64,000 nt of DNA from Mesorhizobium sp. M1E.F.Ca.ET.045.02.1.1. GTDB lineage: Bacteria > Pseudomonadota > Alphaproteobacteria > Rhizobiales > Rhizobiaceae. A model generated the notes under the pieces. The model did not search any database and was not told the DNA's origin. It worked only from the letters and a program-made list of their open reading frames with translations. The translations under genes were made by a program, and so were the position numbers. Below, piece by piece: positions 10,136-38,692 of the stretch. Position 1 is the first letter of the stretch, and the number at the start of each line of letters is the position of its first letter. The stretch is from positions 3,920,501 through 3,984,500 of the forward strand of contig NZ_CP034447.1 in the NCBI RefSeq assembly GCF_003952485.1, written 5' to 3'.

Positions 10136-10672
10136 CCAGCCAGCCGTTGCCAAAGGCGAACATGGGACTTTTTGAGCGGCGGCGTGTCGAAAAAACTGCA
10201 AGCTTTTTTCGTTATTACGCTAAATCGGGTACTAGATCGCCACGTCCAGGACGCCTTGGCATCATCAGGATGTAGGATTCGTTACGCTGCTCAACGCCAT
10301 CCTTGTGATTGCGTTGAGCAGAAGGCGAGCTCCGGACCTTAGGCGTTAGCCTAGCGTTTCGCGGCTGGCTTCTTGATTGGAATTGTTTTTTCTTCCCATG
10401 CCAAGTTGCCGCCGATTAACTCGGGGCAGCCGTCCTTTGCCCAACGGCATAGCCGACAGTTCTTGCGCGTTCGGAAGGTTGGTCGTCCGATTGATCGTTT
10501 CCGTTCCTCAGAAGTCGCGAGGAGATTGGGAGGGCAACGGTATTCATCTGGAAGCTAGGATGCGCTGCTTTGCCCCTGCCCGGAAACTTTTTCAGGCGTC
10601 CACAATCATTGCATATATGGGTGCTACGGAGCGTCCGAACTGGGAACAAAACAAATCGGGCGAGGCTTGATC
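10136..10672. other. Intergenic stretch with two hairpins, no supported gene
   Basis: No coding sequence is supported. Two inverted repeats are visible: an AT-rich one at 10188-10211 (CGAAAAAA / TTTTTTCG) and a perfect 11-base one at 10287-10321. The end of the stretch carries the ribosome site of the ProQ/FinO gene. Confidence 0.5.
10287..10321. repeat. Perfect 11-base inverted repeat
   Basis: CTGCTCAACGC at 10287-10297 pairs exactly with GCGTTGAGCAG at 10311-10321 across a 13-base loop. There is no T-run on either side, so it is not a classical intrinsic terminator. It could be a processed RNA hairpin, an operator, or the end of a lost mobile element. Confidence 0.6.
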
Positions 10673-22355: not shown

Positions 22356-22437
22356 GGAGAGGCAGAGGGGAGGCCGGGATGCGATGGCGGGTCGAGGCCA
22401 GGAGAGAGGCTCCCGGCACCCGTCGCGGAGAAAGATC
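22356..22437 (+). promoter_or_regulatory. Structured purine-rich leader A, upstream of DUF932 gene
   Basis: The 80 bases before the DUF932 start contain GGAGAGGCAGAGGGG (22356-22370) and then a nested hairpin: CGGGT (22388-22392) with ACCCG (22418-22422), enclosing GCC/GGC and GGAG/CTCC around an AGAGG loop. The start codon follows 14-16 bases later. The same arrangement recurs before the ParB and methyltransferase-helicase genes. It may be an mRNA leader or protein-binding site; no match to a named riboswitch is recognised. Confidence 0.5.
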
Positions 22438-23634
22438 ATGACCCATATGGAGATTCTGGCGCCGTCACGCACGACGCCCAATGGTTACAAGGTCGATGTC
22501 AGCCGCGGCCAGCGTATCGGGCGCGTGTCATCGGAATGGTTCAACCGGCCTGACGACGACCGTTACCTGTCGCTCACCGACCTCAACAGTGCTGTGAAGC
22601 GGCGGTCCGAACGCAGCAAGACGCGCATCGTGGAAAGCGAGGCGATCCGCGTCGAAGCATCCCGCGACAATCCCGAGCGGCTCACCCTCATGCTCCCGGA
22701 TGGCAATATGCCGGTTACGCCGACACACTGGAGCTTTGGCCAACTCGCCAGCCTGGTCGGTGCGCCTACGACTTATCTGCGCCAGCTGCCAGCCGCGCTT
22801 GCCGGGATCAATCTGCAGTATGGCCTATCCACGCACCGCGCCGAGCAAGTAAAAACGCTCGAGATCGAGAACGGCCGTCTGGAGCTTCGAGCCATTACAG
22901 GTCCAGATTACGGCAGAATATTCGACTCAGAACTGATCGACGCCGTTCAAAAGATCGCCGGCAACGGCACCGGCGACACGCGCTGGAAGGTACCGGGCGT
23001 ACTCGACTGGTCAACAGGCTTCTACAACCCCAACGTCGATATCTCGAAGGACACGACAACGCTCTATGCCTCGGACCGCGACATCTTTGTGTTCCTGGTC
23101 GACGACCTCAATCCCATCGAAGCCGGCCGGTTGCCCAACGGCGAACCGGATCTCTACTTCCGCGGATTCTACGCCTGGAACAGCGAGGTCGGCTCGAAAA
23201 CCCTAGGAATCGCAAGCTTTTACCTGCGAGCCGTATGCCAAAATCGCAATCTGTGGGGCGTCGAGGATTTCCAGGAAATCACCATCCGTCACTCCAAATA
23301 CGCCGCCTCGCGCTTTGCGCTGGAAGCCGAACCGGCGCTGATCCAGTTCGCGGAATCCTCGCCCATGCCCTTCGTCAACGGCATCAAGGCAGCGCGCGAG
23401 CGCGTTGTTGCCCGCAACGACGATGATCGGACGACATTCCTGCGCAAGCGCGGCTTCTCGAAAGGCGAAACCACGAAGATTATCGATGCTGTGCTCACCG
23501 ACGAAGGCCATCCGCCGGCATCGGTGTTCGACTTCGTCCAAGGCATCACGCGCGTTGCGCGCGACAAGCAGCATCAGGATGTGCGGCTCGAAATGGAAGG
23601 CAAAGCCAAGAAGCTCCTCGACCTCGTCCACTGA
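22438..23634 (+). CDS. DUF932 domain protein (phage/plasmid-like)
   Basis: 398-residue protein of the DUF932 family found on plasmids, phages and ICEs. Typical segments are TPTHWSFGQLASLVGAPTTY, ELRAITGPDYGRIFDSELID, TTLYASDRDIFVFLVDD, GFYAWNSEVGSKTLGIASFY and HSKYAASRF. The ATG at 22438 has GGAGAAAG upstream; a long open extension 5' of it overlaps the leader and is not used. The function is unknown, though the family travels with conjugative elements. First gene of the plus-strand block and separated from the next by a hairpin. Confidence 0.85.
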   Translation: MTHMEILAPSRTTPNGYKVDVSRGQRIGRVSSEWFNRPDDDRYLSLTDLNSAVKRRSERSKTRIVESEAIRVEASRDNPERLTLMLPDGNMPVTPTHWSFGQLASLVGAPTTYLRQLPAALAGINLQYGLSTHRAEQVKTLEIENGRLELRAITGPDYGRIFDSELIDAVQKIAGNGTGDTRWKVPGVLDWSTGFYNPNVDISKDTTTLYASDRDIFVFLVDDLNPIEAGRLPNGEPDLYFRGFYAWNSEVGSKTLGIASFYLRAVCQNRNLWGVEDFQEITIRHSKYAASRFALEAEPALIQFAESSPMPFVNGIKAARERVVARNDDDRTTFLRKRGFSKGETTKIIDAVLTDEGHPPASVFDFVQGITRVARDKQHQDVRLEMEGKAKKLLDLVH

Positions 23635-23693
23635 TCCCCGCCCAGGCCGGCGATCTACATACCGCATGCCGGCGTCCCTCTCATCGCCACTTC

Positions 23694-23730
23694 AAGGCGC
23701 CGTCCCCACAACCACGAGGGCGGCGCCTTT
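23694..23730 (+). terminator. GC-rich hairpin after DUF932 gene
   Basis: AAGGCGCCG (23694-23702) pairs perfectly with CGGCGCCTT (23721-23729), followed by a short T-run. A second small hairpin (GGACC/GGTCC) lies at 23740-23753. Weak intrinsic terminator or RNA-processing hairpin. Confidence 0.5.
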
Positions 23731-23792
23731 CGTCGTGACGGACCACGAGGTCCGAAGGCGGGCTTTCGATCGTCCGTCATGGAGCGCCACCC

Positions 23793-24014
23793 ATGCACGA
23801 TACTGCCAAGATCCAAATGCCGCTGCTGACAGCTGACCAGCGCGGACAGTTCCTCGCCAACGGCCGCCAGAGCGATCGCGATCATGTCCCGGTGGTCAAG
23901 TTCTTCAATCCGGTTGGGATCCGCACCTGGCTTGCAACCGAGCTTGATGCTGACGGCGACATCCCAGGCGTCGGAGCCATGTCCGCACCGGCCGAACCGA
24001 GGACCGCGCCATGA
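23793..24014 (+). CDS. DUF2958 domain fragment
   Basis: 73-residue protein whose first 50 residues match the start of DUF2958: MPLLTADQRGQFLANGRQSD, then PVVKFFNPVGIRTWLATELD. The family is normally about 110-120 residues and continues with a glycine-rich second half, which is missing; the frame ends with an unrelated APAEPRTAP. The stop overlaps the next start as ATGA (24011-24014), so the truncated gene may still be translated. It is either a deletion derivative or a short family member. Function unknown. Confidence 0.6.
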   Translation: MHDTAKIQMPLLTADQRGQFLANGRQSDRDHVPVVKFFNPVGIRTWLATELDADGDIPGVGAMSAPAEPRTAP

Positions 24015-24211
24015 GCGGTCGCCCCATTCTCCAGCTCTACACCACTCTTGCCGAGTTCGAGACCCTGCACGAGCGGCACGATCGTACGCGCAGCACCAGC
24101 AAGACGGTCACCGTCGATCGCCAGGCGCTCATCCACATCCTCATGGACCATGCCCGCATGCTCGACGCGCTGTGCAAGGCTGGACGAGTCGATGTCGCCG
24201 AACCGCATTGA
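24011..24211 (+). CDS. Small hypothetical protein
   Basis: 66-residue protein with the start overlapping the previous stop (ATGA). It reads MSGRPILQLYTTLAEFETLH and TVTVDRQALIHILMDHARML, a small, probably helical fold without recognisable motif. The translational coupling and lack of gaps suggest it belongs to the same mRNA as the DUF2958 fragment. Unknown function. Confidence 0.6.
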   Translation: MSGRPILQLYTTLAEFETLHERHDRTRSTSKTVTVDRQALIHILMDHARMLDALCKAGRVDVAEPH

Positions 24212-24242
24212 GGCCACCGGCTTGCGCCGGCGCGGCGGCGGC

Positions 24243-24329
24243 GAGAGGCAGAGGGCGGAGGAGAGGGTTCCTGACGGGTTTGGAGGTTCGGGGAGAGTTC
24301 CCGGGCCGCCCGTCATGGAGACCCTGACC
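24243..24329 (+). promoter_or_regulatory. Structured purine-rich leader B, upstream of parB-like gene
   Basis: GAGAGGCAGAGGG (24243-24255) is identical to the same block in leader A. It is followed by GACGGG (24273-24278) pairing with CCCGTC (24309-24314) and an inner CGGG/CCCG hairpin (24289-24303) with a GAGAG-containing loop. The ribosome site and ATG follow directly. Similar to the leaders at 22356 and 29954. Confidence 0.5.
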
Positions 24330-26462
24330 ATGGCAAAAAGCGCCATTCAGAAGATCGCAATGAACCCCTCGGAGAACATCGCCTACGACAAGCTGGTCCT
24401 GTCGCAGCAGAATGTCCGCCGGGTGAAGGACGGCGTCACCATCGAGCAACTCGCCGAGGACATCGGTCGGCGCAAGCTCTTGCAGAGCCTGAACGTCCGT
24501 CCCGTTCTCGCTGGAGACGGCGAGGAGACCGGCACCTATGAAGTGCCCGCCGGCGGCCGCCGCTATCTCGCGCTCGGCATTCTCGTCAAGCAGAAGCGCT
24601 TGGCGAAGAACGAGCCGATCCCCTGCATCGTCAATCGCAGCGGAACGACGTCGGCCGAGGAGGACTCGCTTGCCGAGAACGTGCATCGCGAGAACCTGCA
24701 TCCACTCGACCAGTTCCGCGCGTTCAAGGCACTGAAGGAGCAGAGTCTCGACATCCAAGAGATCGCCGCCCGCTTCTTCGTATCGGCAGCCACCGTCAAG
24801 CAGCGCCTGAGGCTTGCCTCGGTATCGCCAAAGCTGCTTGAGCTTTACGAGAAGGACGAAATCCGCCTCGACCAGATCATGGCGTTCTCGATCTCCAACG
24901 ACCATGCCCGCCAGGAGCAGGTCTGGGAACGCATCTCCGGCAATCCGCACATGCAGGAGCCCTATTACATCCGGCGCCTGCTGACGGAGACCACGGTTCG
25001 CGCCGATGATCGCCGTGCGGTCTATGTCGGCGCCGAGGCATACGAAGCTGCTGGCGGCGTCATCCTGCGCGACCTGTTCGAGCAGGATTCCGGCGGCTGG
25101 TTCCAGGATGCGGCACTGCTCGAGCAACTGGTCTTCGACAGGCTGAAGATCGACGCCGAGACCATCCGCGCCGACGGATGGAAGTGGGTCGAGGCGGCGA
25201 TCAGCTTCCCCTATGGCCACACCTCCGGCATGCGGCGGGTCTATGCTGAACCCGCGGAAATGAGCGCAGAGGAGATTGCCCGCCACGACGCGGTGAAGGC
25301 GGAGTACGATGCGCTCGACGCCAAATATGCCGAGATGGAAGACGCCGACCAGGAGATCGAGGACAGGCTCGATCAGCTCGGCGCCGAGCTCGACGGTTTT
25401 GGCGATCGTCCCCAGGTCTACGATCCGGCGCAGAAGGCCATTGCCGGGGCGTTCGTCACGCTCGGCGCCAACGGCCAGTTGCAGGTAGAAGCCGGCTTCG
25501 TTCGTCCCGAGGATGAACCCCGCGTCGAGGTGGACGATGACGAGGAGGCCGACGGCAGGGCTCGCGACGCGTCGCAGTTCGACGAGAACGGCGCCAATGG
25601 CGTCGTCGTGAACGGCCGGTCCACGAACGGCGGATCCGAAGCGACCGAGGAGCCCGAGGAAGAAGGCATCAAGCCTCTGCCGGAACGGCTTGTCTTCGAC
25701 CTCACCGCGCAGAAGACGCTGGCGCTGCGCAACGCGCTGGCGAGCGACGTCGACGTCGCCTTCGTCGCCGTTCTCCATGCCCTCGTGCTGCAGGTGTTCT
25801 ACCGCTTCGCCAAGGACAGCTGCCTCGAGGTCACTTTTGCGAGCAACAGTTTTGGCCAGGTCCAGGGCCTTGCTGAGACTGCTTGGGCCAAGGAGATCGC
25901 GGAGCGTCACGAGGCATGGGATAGGGATATGCCAGACAGCGACAAGCTCTGGGACTTCCTGCTCGGCCTCGACGAAGCGAGCCGCAAGGCGCTGTTCGCG
26001 CACTGCGCGTCCCTCTCGCTCAACGCCGTGGTCGAGCCCTGGAACAAGCGTCCGGGTGCGCTGGCCCATGCCGATGCGCTCGCCGCGACGCTCGGCTTCG
26101 ACATGGTCACCGCCGGCTGGGAACCGACCGTCGACAACTATCTCGGCCGCGTCACCAAGGCCAGGATCGTCCAGGCGGTGCGCGAGGCCCGCGGCGAGGA
26201 CTCCGCGCAACTGATCGACCACATGAAGAAGGACTTGATGGCCCGTGAGGCCGCTCGCCTTCTCGAAGGGTCGAACTGGCTGCCCGAGCCGCTGCGCCTC
26301 GCTGGTGACGACTCGTCAGTCGACGCCGGCGAGACCGTCACCGCGGACGAGACGGCTCTTGACGGCGATGCCGCCGAGCTGCCGGCCTTCCTCGCCGACG
26401 CAGCGTCCGAGGAACCGACCGTCGCCGACGAGGAAACAGACCAGCTAGAGGCCGCCGAGTAA
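24330..26462 (+). CDS. Large ParB/Spo0J-like nuclease-domain protein
   Basis: 710-residue protein. Residues about 10-120 form a ParB N-terminal domain (LVLSQQNVRRVKDGVTIEQL, GGRRYLALGIL, SLAENVHRENLHPLDQFRAF), followed by an HTH (EIAARFFVSAATVKQRLRLA) near residues 150-190. The rest is long, with an acidic, coiled-coil-like stretch (EEIARHDAVKAEYDALDAKY) and an acidic tail. It is twice the size of chromosomal ParB and typical of plasmid/ICE ParB-like proteins. The start at 24330 has GGAG in the preceding CATGGAG, as in neighbouring genes; upstream in-frame starts lie in the leader. Probably binds element DNA for partition or gene control. Confidence 0.85.
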   Translation: MAKSAIQKIAMNPSENIAYDKLVLSQQNVRRVKDGVTIEQLAEDIGRRKLLQSLNVRPVLAGDGEETGTYEVPAGGRRYLALGILVKQKRLAKNEPIPCIVNRSGTTSAEEDSLAENVHRENLHPLDQFRAFKALKEQSLDIQEIAARFFVSAATVKQRLRLASVSPKLLELYEKDEIRLDQIMAFSISNDHARQEQVWERISGNPHMQEPYYIRRLLTETTVRADDRRAVYVGAEAYEAAGGVILRDLFEQDSGGWFQDAALLEQLVFDRLKIDAETIRADGWKWVEAAISFPYGHTSGMRRVYAEPAEMSAEEIARHDAVKAEYDALDAKYAEMEDADQEIEDRLDQLGAELDGFGDRPQVYDPAQKAIAGAFVTLGANGQLQVEAGFVRPEDEPRVEVDDDEEADGRARDASQFDENGANGVVVNGRSTNGGSEATEEPEEEGIKPLPERLVFDLTAQKTLALRNALASDVDVAFVAVLHALVLQVFYRFAKDSCLEVTFASNSFGQVQGLAETAWAKEIAERHEAWDRDMPDSDKLWDFLLGLDEASRKALFAHCASLSLNAVVEPWNKRPGALAHADALAATLGFDMVTAGWEPTVDNYLGRVTKARIVQAVREARGEDSAQLIDHMKKDLMAREAARLLEGSNWLPEPLRLAGDDSSVDAGETVTADETALDGDAAELPAFLADAASEEPTVADEETDQLEAAE

Positions 26463-26482
26463 ACGGCCTCCTGCTTCGCACC

Positions 26483-26509
26483 GGGCCCGGCATCCCCGCC
26501 GGGCCCTTT
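26483..26509 (+). terminator. GC-rich hairpin after parB-like gene
   Basis: GGGCCCGG (26483-26490) pairs with CCGGGCCC (26499-26506), followed by TTTA. Twenty bases downstream comes the next ribosome site, so it sits between two genes of the same block. Confidence 0.55.
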
Positions 26510-26533
26510 ATGTATTCCGACATGGAGATCCGC

Positions 26534-27002
26534 ATGTCAGCCCACATCGTTTACGATTCCGCCCCGTTGGGGAGCGTCATCCGATACTTTGATTCAACAC
26601 CAAAGCCGCTGGCCCGTTTCAGAAAGAAGCTCTCCGCCTGGGAGAGCCGCAATGGCACCGGCCGCCTGGTGAAGAAGGAGCCGCCGCGAACGCGCGCGAC
26701 CTACAGCTCGCCAGCATATTTTACCCTGCATGAGGGCGATTTCGGAGAGGGCGGCGTTGTCGTCATCTCAGTCCGTCGCACCTACTCCGTAGAGAGCAAC
26801 CTGCGTCGTCGAACGTCCGGCGATCGGCATGGTCCGCGTACTGCAGGATCTCGGCGACAGCCCGGAGCTGGTGCATCTCGCCCGGGACCGCGAGGCGGCC
26901 GAACGCTGGCTCGCGAACAACCGGTATAGCCGAGCCTATCTCGAAGAGGTCTCAGCCGACGAAGTCGGCGCCGACATCATCGAGGGCCGCGCGGCAGCCT
27001 GA
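26534..27002 (+). pseudogene. Conserved small gene split by a frameshift
   Basis: The frame from ATG 26534 (ribosome site GGAG) reads MSAHIVYDSAPLGSVIRYFD and continues normally to VVVISVRRTYSVESNL near 26800. There it turns into arginine/glycine junk, while another frame picks up protein-like sequence: VVERPAIGMVRVLQDLGDSP, then ERWLANNRYSRAYLEEVSAD to a stop at 27000-27002. One single-base change would give a protein of about 155 residues. Either a true mutation or a sequencing slip; the second half has its own ATG at 26829 and could be made alone (57 residues). Function unknown. Confidence 0.65.
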
Positions 27003-27030
27003 CTTCTACACCGAATAAACCAACCACCGA

Positions 27031-27065
27031 CAGGCCCGGGATCGCGCGAGTGATCGCCGGGCCTG
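27031..27065 (+). terminator. GC-rich hairpin between small genes
   Basis: CAGGCCCGG (27031-27039) pairs with CCGGGCCTG (27057-27065), with an inner ATC/GAT pair. A weak T-rich tail (TTCCGTTTC) follows, then the next ribosome site. Confidence 0.55.
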
Positions 27066-27086
27066 TTCCGTTTCATGGAGATCGAC

Positions 27087-27479
27087 ATGTTCGACTGGAC
27101 CAGAAGTTGCTCCTATGACGAGCAGCAGAAAAGACGCTTTCACACGACCGCCCGCTCGCGGCTGAAGAAACTCGCTGCAGAACTGGCGCTGCCGCCTGGC
27201 AGCTTTGACCTGCGTTCGAACAAGGCGGGTATCGCCGTTTCCGGCGAAATTACCCTGCACCATGACCGGGTATACATCCAGGTTGGTCAGTTCGCCATGT
27301 CCTCCGGCCACGGCATCCTGATCCGCACCTGCAAGGGCCGCAAGGATTATACCGGCGGAGCCAATCACTTCGTAGCGCTCGCCATGCTCGACGACGTTCC
27401 GGCGCTCGCGGCCGCCGTCCGCGCCATCACCGGTATCGGGCGCGAAGCAGCACAGCCCGCCGATCGCCGCGCCGCCTGA
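27087..27479 (+). CDS. Hypothetical protein of the mobile-element block
   Basis: 130-residue protein starting MFDWTRSCSYDEQQKRRFHT with a GGAG ribosome site nine bases upstream (the in-frame ATG at 27075 contains that site). It has LPPGSFDLRSNKAGIAVSGE, then VYIQVGQFAMSSGHGILIRT and CKGRKDYTGGANHFV, a compact beta-rich core, and an alanine-rich helical C-terminus. No known domain is recognised. It follows the frameshifted gene after a hairpin. Confidence 0.7.
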   Translation: MFDWTRSCSYDEQQKRRFHTTARSRLKKLAAELALPPGSFDLRSNKAGIAVSGEITLHHDRVYIQVGQFAMSSGHGILIRTCKGRKDYTGGANHFVALAMLDDVPALAAAVRAITGIGREAAQPADRRAA

Positions 27480-27565
27480 AGCAGCCCCACGATTCCCCAC
27501 CGCCGACCCTCTCTCGCCGTAGCACCCCCGCGCGGCGGGAGGCCCGGCTATTCCGGAGACATGTC

Positions 27566-28195
27566 ATGTCCACCCATCCCCCGTTCCGAAAGGTGTTCGA
27601 GGGCGTTGCGACCCGGTCGCAGATGTTTGCCCTATTCGATCGTCACAGCGATACGCCGGGTGTCGATCCCCTGTCCGGCGTGCCGTATGCGTCGGAGTGG
27701 TTCGAGATTTCGGCCAGCGAATACCACTTCATGCTCGGACTTCTGCCGCCGCTCTTCCAGCGAACCGGCATGTTCGGCATGTCCGAATACAAGGCCGGCA
27801 ATGTCACCAGCGTCTTCTTCGCGATCAGGATCCGCGGCCGCGAACGGTGGTTCCACGGCTTCTGCGATCTCTCCGACAAACGCAGCCCCGATGCCATGCG
27901 GGCAGCGATCATCGCGCATGAGACGGGTGCGGTCGACAGCATGACGCGCGAGGAAAAGCTCGAGGCGATCTGGTCCGCCACACATGCGGACTTCAGGGGC
28001 ATCGCTGGCGAGACTAACCCCAATGCCTGGCCACTGGAGCATCATGGCAAGCGGACCATCCTTGTTTACACCGTCGGGCAGGGCACGACCCTCAAGCTTC
28101 TGGAGGATCTGACCGACGAAGAGATCGACAGCCTCATGCCGGCAGTCCACGCACGATCGAAGAAGAGAGGGGGCAACGATGCGAAACCATCGTAA
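27566..28195 (+). CDS. DUF1419 family protein
   Basis: 209-residue protein resembling the DUF1419 family of Rhizobiales plasmids and islands. Features: FRKVFEGVATRSQMFALFDR, EWFEISASEYHFMLGLLPPL, RGRERWFHGFCDLSDKRSP and LEDLTDEEIDSLMPAVHARS. The ATG at 27566 has GGAG eight bases upstream. It overlaps the next gene by 17 bases, so both are likely co-translated. Function unknown; members occur near ParB-like and methyltransferase-helicase genes as here. Confidence 0.75.
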   Translation: MSTHPPFRKVFEGVATRSQMFALFDRHSDTPGVDPLSGVPYASEWFEISASEYHFMLGLLPPLFQRTGMFGMSEYKAGNVTSVFFAIRIRGRERWFHGFCDLSDKRSPDAMRAAIIAHETGAVDSMTREEKLEAIWSATHADFRGIAGETNPNAWPLEHHGKRTILVYTVGQGTTLKLLEDLTDEEIDSLMPAVHARSKKRGGNDAKPS

Positions 28196-28616
28196 GCCGC
28201 CGCGACAGGCGGACGAGCCGACCTGGGAGGCGCACTCCGCTTACACTGCCGACCTTGGAGCTCCGGACAGGTGCCGATACCGGCGCACACCGCCCGGCTC
28301 CCCGACCGTCGCCGATCTGGTTTGGCCCGGCGATACGGTCTCGACCTCCTACGGCACCGGGGGTGTCGTGATCGAGGTGAAGGAATACTTCTATGCGGCA
28401 CCGACGGGCGAGACGCTGTCGCATTTTACCATCGTCTACGTGCCGCCCGATCGCGCTGAAAAATACCGCGATACCGACCGTCACTGGATCAATGAATTCG
28501 TCGCGGTCGGCGATCGCATCCTGATGCTTTTCGAAGCTAATGCGGATGAGGTCTTCGTCGTCGACCGTGCCCGACCGGCCGAAATCCCTCCTTTCCGCAC
28601 CGTCCTGATCACCTAG
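28179..28616 (+). CDS. Hypothetical protein
   Basis: 145-residue protein overlapping the end of the DUF1419 gene. The first 45 residues are basic and proline-rich; the rest is a beta-rich fold with VADLVWPGDTVSTSYGTGGV, VIEVKEYFYAAPTGETLSHF and INEFVAVGDRILMLFEANAD. The GTGGVV segment recalls SH3-like barrels that bind nucleic acid, but this is only an impression. Unknown function. Confidence 0.65.
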   Translation: MRNHRKPPRQADEPTWEAHSAYTADLGAPDRCRYRRTPPGSPTVADLVWPGDTVSTSYGTGGVVIEVKEYFYAAPTGETLSHFTIVYVPPDRAEKYRDTDRHWINEFVAVGDRILMLFEANADEVFVVDRARPAEIPPFRTVLIT

Positions 28617-28706
28617 CTAGAAACTAAATCGATCAGGACGACATCACCGATCGCCGGTTTCGGCGCGCCGACTGGAACCGGACCGAGTCCCCGACTTCCC
28701 TTCCCT

Positions 28707-28730
28707 GCCCGGCGCTTGCGTCGGGCATCG
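28707..28730 (+). terminator. Hairpin before small hypothetical gene
   Basis: GCCCGGCG (28707-28714) pairs with CGTCGGGC (28719-28726) with one G-T pair and a 4-base loop; a T-run follows within nine bases. Same layout as other hairpins in this block. Confidence 0.5.
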
Positions 28731-28754
28731 CTTTTCCATGACTGGAGCAAGACC

Positions 28755-29162
28755 ATGTCAAGGTTCACGATCGAAACCACCTACCGCATGCCGTACTACC
28801 GACATCGAGTCTACGACGCCGCCACGCCCGAAGAAGCATGTCGCCTCGCCATCGAGGATGACGACTGGTCGAGTGAACTGCCCGACTATGAGTGCGCCGG
28901 CCCCACCTATGTCACGGGCATCTGGAAAGGCGGCGGCGCCGCCTATGAGGGCAAGGAGATCCCAGTACCGTCGCATTTCGACGAGACCATCCAACGCAAG
29001 GCCGATCATTTCTCTGAGCTGCTCGACCAGCTCGCTTTCGTCGCACGACCCATGGGCGTTTCGCAGGTGGAGTTCGAACGCTGGTTGCCAAAGGCGATGG
29101 CAGCGGTCGAAAAAGCCAGGGCGATCATCGAGGAACGCCGAGACTCCAACGAGCAAAAATAG
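28755..29162 (+). CDS. Hypothetical protein
   Basis: 135-residue protein: MSRFTIETTYRMPYYRHRVY, then EEACRLAIEDDDWSSELPDY, suggesting a small alpha/beta domain that handles a repeated 'AxTPEEACR-A' pattern also seen in other small element proteins, and a C-terminal helix pair (FSELLDQLAFVARPMGVSQV). The ATG at 28755 has GGAGC about nine bases upstream. Unknown function. Confidence 0.65.
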   Translation: MSRFTIETTYRMPYYRHRVYDAATPEEACRLAIEDDDWSSELPDYECAGPTYVTGIWKGGGAAYEGKEIPVPSHFDETIQRKADHFSELLDQLAFVARPMGVSQVEFERWLPKAMAAVEKARAIIEERRDSNEQK

Positions 29163-29194
29163 CGATCGCTCCGCCCAACCCTCAGGAGGTTCAC

Positions 29195-29488
29195 ATGCCG
29201 ACATATCGACTCGGATCGAGCCCGCTCGTTCATGCTCCAGGCCTGATCAAATGGGCAATCAACGCATATGCCTTCCCGCGCGATCGCGCCGTCATCCTGC
29301 GTGTCGTCACAGAAACTTGGCCCGGGTTGCCGGAAGAGCACGCCATCCTTCTTCTCTCCCGTGCGCTTGCGTACAAACTCGATGACGACGCCGTCGTACT
29401 GGAAATCTTGGAAAACACCGCCACGGCTGCGCCAGCTGAGCCCTGCGTTCGCGCGACTTCACGCGGCACAGGGGAGATCGGGCAATGA
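29195..29488 (+). CDS. Hypothetical protein
   Basis: 97-residue protein with an excellent ribosome site (AGGAGG) before the ATG. It reads MPTYRLGSSPLVHAPGLIKW, AFPRDRAVILRVVTETWPGL and AILLLSRALAYKLDDDAVVL: likely a small helical bundle. It overlaps the next gene (ATGA at 29485-29488). Unknown function. Confidence 0.65.
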   Translation: MPTYRLGSSPLVHAPGLIKWAINAYAFPRDRAVILRVVTETWPGLPEEHAILLLSRALAYKLDDDAVVLEILENTATAAPAEPCVRATSRGTGEIGQ

Positions 29489-29907
29489 CCGAATATGTCG
29501 TCAAGCTCCGCTTCTGGCTTCGCTGCTGGGACAGTATGACAATCGATGCCGGCAACGACGCTGACGCGATTGCCGCGGCCCCGCAGCTTGCCAGTGAGAT
29601 GATGCTCTCGGCGAGCTATCCGGAATCCATCGAAGCCGATGAGCGCCGTGAAGGGCTCATTTCCTATATCGATCGCGTCGATATGGAGGGCCGTGATGAA
29701 ATCGCCGAGGCGATCGAATTCGACGGCGCGCGCCCCCTGTTTCCAAAGACAGCGGCGCTAATTTTACGTCTGGCGCAACTTAAGATCGATGACATCCAGA
29801 GCGAGACCGACCTGCGCGCGCTTCTAGCAGGCTTCGCGCTTGAAGCACGCGACATCTCGCCGGACGTTCCGCCGTGGCCCGGATCGCCGCACAGCAGCGA
29901 CACCTAG
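29485..29907 (+). CDS. Hypothetical protein
   Basis: 140-residue protein coupled to the preceding one by ATGA. The N-terminal part (MTEYVVKLRFWLRCWDSMTI, DADAIAAAPQLASEMM) looks like an alpha/beta domain of the same general design as the 28755 protein, followed by an acidic helical half (EEIAEAIEFDG-like and LRALLAGFALEARDIS). Stops before leader C. Unknown function. Confidence 0.65.
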   Translation: MTEYVVKLRFWLRCWDSMTIDAGNDADAIAAAPQLASEMMLSASYPESIEADERREGLISYIDRVDMEGRDEIAEAIEFDGARPLFPKTAALILRLAQLKIDDIQSETDLRALLAGFALEARDISPDVPPWPGSPHSSDT

Positions 29908-29953
29908 CCGTCAGTCCAAGAGTCGTTCGCCGGTTCTTTCGGCCCACATCGCT

Positions 29954-30044
29954 GGAGGGAGAGAGGGGCCGGGAGGAGTGCGGCCTTGCCGGAGCGCAGA
30001 GAGCGCGCCGGCAGGGCGGACACTCTCGCTCGAAGGACATCTCC
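29954..30044 (+). promoter_or_regulatory. Structured purine-rich leader C, upstream of methyltransferase-helicase
   Basis: A GGAGGGAGAGAGGGG block (29954-29968) is followed by a long hairpin: CCTTGCCGG (29984-29992) pairs with CCGGCAGGG (30008-30016), with an inner GCGC/GCGC stem and an AGAGA loop (29998-30002). It has the same order of elements as leaders A and B before two other large genes. Confidence 0.5.
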
Positions 30045-37035: not shown

Positions 37036-37100
37036 CGGGGCCAGAGGGAGAGGGCGGCCGGGCCGGGGGGCGGTTGATCTGAGAGAAAGGAAAGCGACCA

Positions 37101-37634
37101 ATGACGATAATATTCCTTGGCGGTTCGCGTGACATCTTCGAGCTGCCGGTCCCCGCGATCGAACGCATCGGCGCGATCGTTGCGGCCGAGCACGGCGTGC
37201 TGATCGGTGACGCGCCGGGAGCAGATGCCGAAATGCAGGGCCTGCTTGCGGGCTACAAGTACGAGCATGTCGGGGTCTTCCATGCCGGCAAGGAACCCCG
37301 CAACAATCTGGGCGACTGGGCCGCCTACCATGTTCCTTCTCCTGAGGATGCCAGAGGGTGCTGGGTCCACGCCGCCAAAGACCGGGAGATGGCGCGGCGG
37401 GCCGACTTTGGCATGATGGTCTGGGACGGCTCATCAGCCGGCACGGCCGTCAACGTGCTTCGGCTCGCCATCTCGAACAAGCCGTGCGTTATTTACGATC
37501 TGGCCAGGGGCAGCATGGCGACCACGTACAATGTGGAAGATTGGTGCGCCATGCTCCGCCATGCCGATCCCGACATTCGCCGCCAAGCCGAAGCCCGCAT
37601 GACGCCGGACGAGCGTCTGGCGTTGCCAGGATGA
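37101..37634 (+). CDS. SLOG/Rossmann-like nucleotide-binding protein
   Basis: 177-residue protein with a nucleotide-binding Rossmann-like pattern: MTIIFLGGSRDIFELP, VLIGDAPGADAEMQGLLAGY, VGVFHAGKEPRNNLGDW, then ADFGMMVWDGSSAGTAVNVL and KPCVIYDLARG. GGS-R-I, GDAPGAD and WDG-S-GT correspond to ligand-binding loops in SLOG/LOG-type folds, close in idea to DUF2493. The ATG is preceded by GAGAGAAAGGAAA. It is the second SLOG-like gene within 1.3 kb; possibly both respond to the same nucleotide ligand. Confidence 0.65.
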   Translation: MTIIFLGGSRDIFELPVPAIERIGAIVAAEHGVLIGDAPGADAEMQGLLAGYKYEHVGVFHAGKEPRNNLGDWAAYHVPSPEDARGCWVHAAKDREMARRADFGMMVWDGSSAGTAVNVLRLAISNKPCVIYDLARGSMATTYNVEDWCAMLRHADPDIRRQAEARMTPDERLALPG

Positions 37635-38368: not shown

Positions 38369-38692
38369 ATGGCCACCACGATCGCAAACCTCACCGCCAA
38401 GGCCGACGGCTCGATGGAAGGCGTGTTTGCCACGCTGCGGGTCAACGCCCCGATCACCTTGATCCCGAACGCCAACAAGACCCGCGAGGATGCTCCCGAC
38501 TACCGCATCGTCAACAAGCGCACCGGCTTCGAGATCGGAGCCGGCTGGCACCGCATCTCCCAGCGTTCGGGCGAGGAATACCTCTCGGTCAAGCTGGAAG
38601 CCCCCGAGATCGGCGTGATCTTCGGCAACCTCGCTCCCGCCCCCGGCGGGGACGAGAACAAAAAGGTGATCCTGTGGAACAACCCGCAGTGA
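38369..38692 (+). CDS. DUF736 family protein
   Basis: 107-residue protein with the full DUF736 pattern: MATTIANLTAKADGSMEGVF, KTREDAPDYRIVNKRTGFEI, GAGWHRISQRSGEEYLSVKL and EIGVIFGNLAP. The ribosome site AAGGAGAAG precedes the ATG. DUF736 genes are abundant on alphaproteobacterial plasmids and ICEs near replication or transfer genes and have no known function. The 136-base fold-back lies in its 5' region. Confidence 0.9.
   Translation: MATTIANLTAKADGSMEGVFATLRVNAPITLIPNANKTREDAPDYRIVNKRTGFEIGAGWHRISQRSGEEYLSVKLEAPEIGVIFGNLAPAPGGDENKKVILWNNPQ

Follow-up and report, generated by a model that had tools for sequence, protein, structure and literature searches.

The stretch examined here, 64,000 nt of Mesorhizobium sp. 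M1E.F.Ca.ET.045.02.1.1 (GCF_003952485.1, NZ_CP034447.1, positions 3,920,501-3,984,500 of the forward strand; called the window below), raises the question of why several unrelated genes of a mobile element begin with a similar purine-rich, foldable region, and what this region does. A preliminary description of the window reported such leaders before three genes, which encode a DUF932-type protein, a ParB-like protein and a Strawberry-notch (SNO) methyltransferase-helicase. On comparison with relatives, the DUF932, ParB, DUF2958 and SNO genes are seen to begin with versions of a single structured leader. This leader is likely to be regulatory, controlling when the proteins of the element are made. 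It probably represents a new family of cis-acting translational leaders, carried by the establishment and anti-restriction genes of conjugative elements and read by a putative trans factor.

One leader before several genes

In the three leaders first described, the parts follow each other in the same order: a purine box, an outer stem (P1), an inner hairpin (P2) with an AGAGG/AGAGA-type loop, a Shine-Dalgarno (SD) sequence and the ATG (Table 1). The window alone gives mixed and insufficient information. The minimum free energy (MFE) of the single sequences, compared with shuffled ones, has z-scores of -0.12 (DUF932), -3.11 (ParB) and -4.22 (SNO), and the purine box by itself is not uncommon in such GC-rich DNA (9 matches with ≤2 mismatches, versus 8.2 expected). 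The DUF932 and ParB leaders were settled by their relatives, and the SNO leader is the least secure of the three.

The relatives are 48 loci found via the ParB-like protein, with up to 10 kb of flank per side, from which the regions upstream of DUF932, ParB and SNO genes were taken; duplicates and cut-off rows were dropped. The same layout recurs in the resulting close sets of 34 DUF932, 44 ParB and 28 SNO leaders (the window's own included), except that one ParB row, L025, has lost the box. Conservation reaches up to the purine box, and the sequence 5' of it diverges.

A covariance model made from the DUF932 leaders only (R1) was run over the window and the 48 loci. It finds the ParB leaders, most of them at E-values of 9.5e-5 to 6e-9, with weaker matches at 3.6e-4 (L012) and 0.0055 (the box-less L025). 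It also finds a new leader type before a small gene located 3' of DUF932 (E of 2.5e-4 and weaker); in the window this is a fourth leader, absent from the preliminary account, which precedes the DUF2958 gene. The SNO leaders are reached by R1 only at E-values of 0.4 and above. A second covariance model, R2, was made from a joint alignment of 89 rows (A7). That a single RNA element is common to genes of the mobile element, as had been proposed, is borne out by the passage of R1 from DUF932 to ParB leaders and by the 126 leaders that R2 places before unrelated gene families.

Fold, covariation and strand

Two larger alignments were derived with R2: A8 consists of 126 matches at E≤1 in 71 fetched regions (about 4-20 kb) and the window, and A9 of 118 matches at E≤2e-4, from a further run that covered 70 of these regions and the window. 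A joint MAFFT alignment of DUF932 and ParB leaders (A5) was dropped because it placed the P2 hairpin one base off, and model-guided alignments were used instead.

In A7, 134 double-changed cells are counted versus 51 after shuffling, and none of 500 shuffles reaches any of the five measures used. In A8, 96.3% of 1861 cells are paired (85.6% after shuffling), 189 cells are double-changed (versus 49, with 0/500 shuffles as high), and all 15 pairs are double-changed. Sliding A8 by one to three columns makes the pairing fall to 42-61%, and all slid controls in A7 and A8 fall short of the covariation observed. A model-free score (APC-corrected G) calculated on A9 gives the pairs of the model ranks 1-5, 7, 8 and 9 out of 3795 column pairs, and 10 of the 15 model pairs lie above 99% of the other pairs. 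The ParB rows of A9 alone still give model pairs ranks 1-5; the signal is weaker in the ArdC (27) or DUF932 (22) rows alone. Within the close groups, the DUF932 leaders have 5 double-changed cells, which is beyond most shuffles. The stems of the main leader type thus covary upstream of the genes. The idea that selection acts on the structure is supported by the cross-finding of R1, by the comparison of A7 and A8 with shuffles and by the covariation ranks. The mean fold z-score of 120 leaders is -2.81, versus -1.43 and -0.40 upstream of the neighbouring Toprim and SLOG genes. The fold of the leader, the strand that folds, its location at the SD and its attachment to unrelated genes are all established by sequence comparison.

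The non-Watson-Crick cells of A8 comprise 315 G.U, 26 A.C and 42 others, and this large excess of G.U over A.C indicates that the mRNA-sense strand folds. It bears on an alternative in which the leader serves conjugation as single-stranded DNA (ssDNA), its hairpin forming in the transferred strand as a promoter or priming site similar to Frpo or ssi. Like the leader, these elements are secondary structures upstream of leading-region genes, and in the Frpo study (Samuel 2024, PMC11541004) the fold is described as containing -10, -35 and UP elements and mimics a duplex promoter in ssDNA. The gene types found here fit leading regions (ArdC, and an SSB gene that adjoins such a module on the plasmid pCHQ1), there is no conserved duplex promoter upstream, and a separate hairpin array precedes some leaders. 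Unlike Frpo, the leader has no evident promoter elements and ends at the SD, to which its spacing is fixed: the GC-rich consensus of 118 leaders has no AT-rich hexamers or -10, -35 and UP elements apparent by eye, no dedicated ssDNA-promoter scan having been made. The G.U pairs lie on the mRNA-sense strand, whereas the template for a T-strand promoter would be the complement. An ssDNA function is therefore considered improbable.

A second conserved element, of about 75 nt of GC hairpins (GGGGAARGCCTTCCCC ... CCCCTTCTGCGGGG ... CCCCGCAACGCCCC; e.g., L104:8181-8252 and L135:7745-7814), is not in the window. It lies directly or closely 5' of the leader in 7/27 ArdC, 7/22 DUF932 and 1/60 ParB genes. 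Among 38 chosen genomes, 15 contain its 16-mer, at 16 places in all, and none of the 11 leader-negative genomes does; 15 of the 16 places adjoin a leader, and for the last one (G425:C33) the flanking DNA was not fetched. When its sense strand is folded, A.C (9) exceeds G.U (3), and so this element may act on the other strand, for example as ssDNA.

The leader of the SNO genes is the most divergent and least secure member of the family, and the evidence from covariation is limited to the main type. RNAalifold finds no double-changed pair in the 28 close SNO leaders, and a structure of our own for 20 diverse ones pairs 71.7% of cells versus 67.7% when slid by -1. GAGAG is present at the predicted hairpin loop of 22/22 diverse (mean z -2.56) and 22/28 close (mean z -2.54) SNO leaders. 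Class-wide, a loosely matched box is found in 22 of 24 parsed SNO upstream regions, the box of one of them (L128) being misplaced into the loop, and the strict AGAGNNAGAG in 16 of 24. Many class-wide SNO leaders (e.g., L105:4687-4785 and L135:12535-12632) have, immediately 5' of the SD, a GCUCUC that complements either their GAGAGC loop or their box; a pseudoknot or switch formed by the loop and this 3' CUCUC is suggestive only.

Table 1. Leaders, their parts and the genes that follow them in the window
Feature	Position	Strand	Remarks
DUF932 leader	22358..22437	+	box AGAGGCAGAG 22358-22367; R2 79.8 bits, E 4e-12
DUF932 leader, P1	22385-22392 with 22418-22425	+	
DUF932 leader, P2	22398-22404 with 22410-22416	+	one A.C mismatch; loop AGAGG 22405-22409
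DUF932 leader, SD GGAG	22427-22430	+	
DUF932-type gene, 398 aa	22438..23634	+	ATG 22438; PF06067 E 0.0027, below cut-off; plasmid relatives annotated DUF932
DUF2958 leader	23702..23792	+	R1 E 0.2; R2 (trained on relatives' copies) E 3e-5
DUF2958 leader, stems	P1 23736-23743 with 23772-23779; P2 23753-23758 with 23763-23768	+	
DUF2958 leader, SD GGAG	23781-23784	+	
DUF2958 gene, 73 aa	23793..24014	+	matches PF11171 positions 1-52 of 111
ParB-like leader	24244..24329	+	box 24244-24253; R2 E 7e-12
ParB leader, stems	P1 24272-24279 with 24308-24315; P2 24285-24293 with 24299-24307	+	P2 loop AGAGT
ParB leader, SD GGAG	24317-24320	+	can pair with GGGTTCC immediately 5' of P1
ParB/RepB/Spo0J-like gene, 710 aa	24330..26462	+	ATG 24330
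SNO leader, divergent subtype	29954..30044	+	box 29954-29963
SNO leader, MFE outer stem	29966-29969 and 29971-29975 with 30023-30031	+	
SNO leader, inner hairpin	29983-29992/29994-29997 with 30003-30006/30008-30017	+	loop AGAGA
SNO leader, SD AAGGA	30033-30037	+	
SNO methyltransferase-helicase gene, 1498 aa	30045..34541	+	ATG 30045; AAA_34 E 3.5e-117, Helicase_C_4 E 2.1e-96
Candidate further leader	37043..37100	+	box AGAGGGAGAGG and GAGAGA, no clear hairpin; before open reading frame at 37101; R1 E 1.4, not significant
DUF736 gene	38381-38683		

The methyltransferase MTS match in the SNO protein is below the cut-off. The DUF2958 protein of the window looks truncated, about half of PF11171 being covered. 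Like the DUF2958 leader, the candidate at 37043 is not in the preliminary account.

Genes and genomes that carry the leader

The proteins encoded after the 126 leaders were grouped into families by single-linkage BLAST clustering of open reading frames (ORFs), some of which are incomplete: 60 are ParB, 27 ArdC, 22 DUF932, and the other 17 form small families of 5, 3 and 2 plus 7 singles, the pair and one of the three resting on weaker matches. According to Pfam, the leader genes include ArdC (ArdcN and MPTase-PolyVal) and DUF2958. Pfam names ArdC an anti-restriction factor; most of the other leader genes are uncharacterised. The purine box is also seen before DUF4326 and DUF6878 genes. The strict AGAGNNAGAG is found in 0/31 and 0/20 upstream regions of the neighbouring Toprim and SLOG genes, and the looser RGAGNNRGAG in 2/31 and 0/20, respectively. 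The leader, attached to unrelated genes and absent from these neighbours, thus behaves as a portable module.

Of the 4 R2 matches in the window's own 7.35-Mb genome, three lie in the window; the fourth, at 6796477, precedes an ArdC-type gene. With one genome sampled per species and E-values that are rough, R2-positive genomes number 28/385 in the class and 34/398 in a phylum-wide sample (both at E≤0.05) and 37/199 in the order (E≤0.001); these samples overlap. All matches of the phylum sample are labelled as the window's class or closer, the 398 being given without the share that other classes make up. PF06067 (DUF932) proved useless as a genome probe (2/78 genomes), because the window's protein scores below its cut-off.

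A BLAST search with one class-type leader matches 61 of 72,556 plasmid records, which include Sphingobium indicum UT26S pCHQ1 and Methylocystis parvus pMpar-1. The same kind of search gives no match in phage records, and leaders are present on 3 IMG/VR contigs. Plasmid pCHQ1 (L169:1-30000) has two related modules beside its replication genes, SSB-Toprim-SNO-ParB-ArdC and zincin-DUF2958-ParB-...-SNO-Toprim-DUF2493. Clear R2 matches are found only in the second module, before one ParB and one zincin gene.

The preliminary description had also suggested that the leader may be bound by the window's ProQ/FinO protein, whose gene is at 10667. Apart from the presence of this gene, the genomes speak against it: PF04352 is found in only 4 of 54 leader-positive genomes (of 55 known, G064 being left out) and in none of 24 leader-negative ones, and a tblastn search of the 71 fetched leader regions (about 4-20 kb) with the window's ProQ protein gives no match. 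ProQ is thus ruled out as a general partner; a private role in this strain is conceivable, and on the whole this proposal has very little probability.

Probable translational control and its alternatives

The structure overlaps the SD: GGAG stands at the foot of P1 and is predicted to be paired. It starts at the second base past the P1 of the model in 105/122 rows, and its end is 7-10 nt from the ATG in 115/118 rows, that is, in all those where GGAG was found. A pyrimidine run 5' of P1 faces the SD, whose four bases have a partner in 105, 115, 82 and 96 of 122 rows. The predicted unpaired probability of the SD has a median of 0.045 and is below 0.2 in 64% of 120 leaders (6 without GGAG in range were dropped), compared with 0.31 for 26 Toprim and 0.31 for 18 SLOG genes of the same elements. 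Occlusion of the SD by the foot of the outer stem is thus predicted by folding.

The leader begins about 82 nt 5' of the start codon with the purine box AGAGNNAGAG, followed by the outer stem (GUGACGGG/CCCGUCGC), which has a bulge on its 5' side, and by an inner GC hairpin whose stem is variable and whose AGAGAGG-like loop is largely constant. The SD GGAG lies where the outer stem has its foot. In the proposed mechanism, the pyrimidine run directly 5' of this stem would extend it into the SD, so that low translation by default is expected. We infer a trans factor, protein or RNA, and its timing (e.g., entry into a new cell). This factor would recognise the repeated AGAG sites of the box and the loop and open or lock the structure, thereby setting the translation of ParB, ArdC, DUF932, DUF2958, SNO and other genes of the element together. 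Since the leader is modular, a shared factor would be a more parsimonious arrangement than autoregulation gene by gene.

The leader could instead be constitutive, the hairpin protecting the mRNA and the purine box serving as a ribosome standby site with no dedicated regulator. The fixed spacing to the SD and the presence of the box agree with this, as does the negative search for a linked regulator. However, the largely constant loop and box combined with variable stems resemble recognition sites, the SD is predicted to be more occluded than in neighbouring genes, and the leader is absent from the Toprim and SLOG genes within these elements. We hold such a constitutive role to be rather unlikely. 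It has also been considered that P1, which begins with GTG, is the start of an upstream ORF or N-terminal extension, whose translation would open the SD. GTG is present at P1 in 90/104 scored rows, and in 20 the frame is open and in phase with the gene; on the other hand, the frame with respect to the main ATG varies (31, 50 and 23 rows fall in the three frames) and stops occur in 48/104. The upstream ORF is largely refuted by these two observations and has a negligible chance of being the explanation.

Candidates for the trans factor were sought among antisense RNAs and linked genes. There are 81 AGAGNNAGAGG sites in L095-L165, 58 of which are in or within 15 nt of model matches; of the remaining 23, 15 are by eye SNO-type or similar leaders and the rest look isolated, and no conserved complementary RNA was found nearby. 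The DUF736 family occurs in 42/54 leader-positive and 7/24 leader-negative genomes. It travels with these elements, and it was rejected as the trans factor because it is missing in 12 of the 54.

Several observations weigh against translational control by a shared factor acting on a uniform leader. Neither a linked regulator gene nor a complementary RNA turned up. Alignments A7-A9 are fitted to the model and hence biased towards it; in the close ParB leaders alone, the 9 double-changed cells are not clearly beyond shuffles, and two model pairs rank only 519 and 732 in A9. Not every leader has every part: the strict AGAGNNAGAG is found in 83/118 leaders and GAGAG in the loop region of 106/118, and the window's DUF2958 leader has neither purine box nor GAGAG loop. 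Nor is the leader on every such gene, as the second ParB gene and the ArdC-like gene of pCHQ1 have no R2 match at E≤1. The pairing of the SD exceeds all 500 shuffles at its third base only, because the SD hardly varies, and its occlusion is not universal (unpaired probability of 0.62 in the window's DUF932 leader, and above 0.5 in 8% of the 120). The information content rises sharply at the box and is almost nil in the 90 nt 5' of it (112/126 anchorable rows), so that no common, conserved promoter precedes the box there.

The absence of a known riboswitch, stated in the preliminary description, is supported. No Rfam 15 family matches the window or 18 relative loci at the gathering thresholds. 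Below threshold, BTH_s1 hits the SNO hairpin (17.1 and 16.1 bits, versus 74), and 20 loci give four weak matches, few and inconsistent, one of which overlaps a leader edge by 9 nt. No earlier description of the leader was found in the open literature, within a coverage that is incomplete and leaves a prior mention possible. In the search for sequence strings, the matches listed were to AGAGTGAGAGG only and look unrelated by their titles, and the searched terms were not found in PMC11963761.

In kind, the RNA belongs to the cis-acting structured leaders; what is unusual is that many unrelated genes of mobile elements carry it. Ribosomal-protein leaders and RNA thermometers also hide the SD in a hairpin next to the start codon. 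They share the hidden SD with the present leader, which differs in that one leader serves many unrelated mobile-element genes and has no Rfam match. Regulation of the TRAP/CsrA type works through repeated short sites. The several short purine AGAG sites in box and loop are similar, and the motif and spacing differ.

STAXI, as presented by Weinberg 2010 (PMC2864571), consists of repeated pseudoknots (RF01728) and is listed for Enterobacteriales. Like the leader, it is a structured element near SSB, antirestriction and integrase genes, for which a role in ssDNA was considered. The present leader is instead a nested two-stem structure at the SD in Alphaproteobacteria, single for each gene and without an Rfam match.

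Genes that help a conjugative element to settle in a new cell must be timed. One tentative extension is that the conjugative plasmids and integrative and conjugative elements of Alphaproteobacteria have a class-wide "establishment regulon", in which anti-restriction, ParB-like, helicase and other entry genes might have their mRNAs kept translationally silent in a settled host and jointly released in a new one via one dedicated AGAG-binding factor. If true, zygotic induction would here operate on translation, by means of an 85-nt RNA module that is portable and could be picked up by any of the element's genes. With about eight unrelated gene types carrying it, the portable leader offers a ready tag by which more establishment genes could be found, and a defined RNA bait for fishing out a putative regulator.

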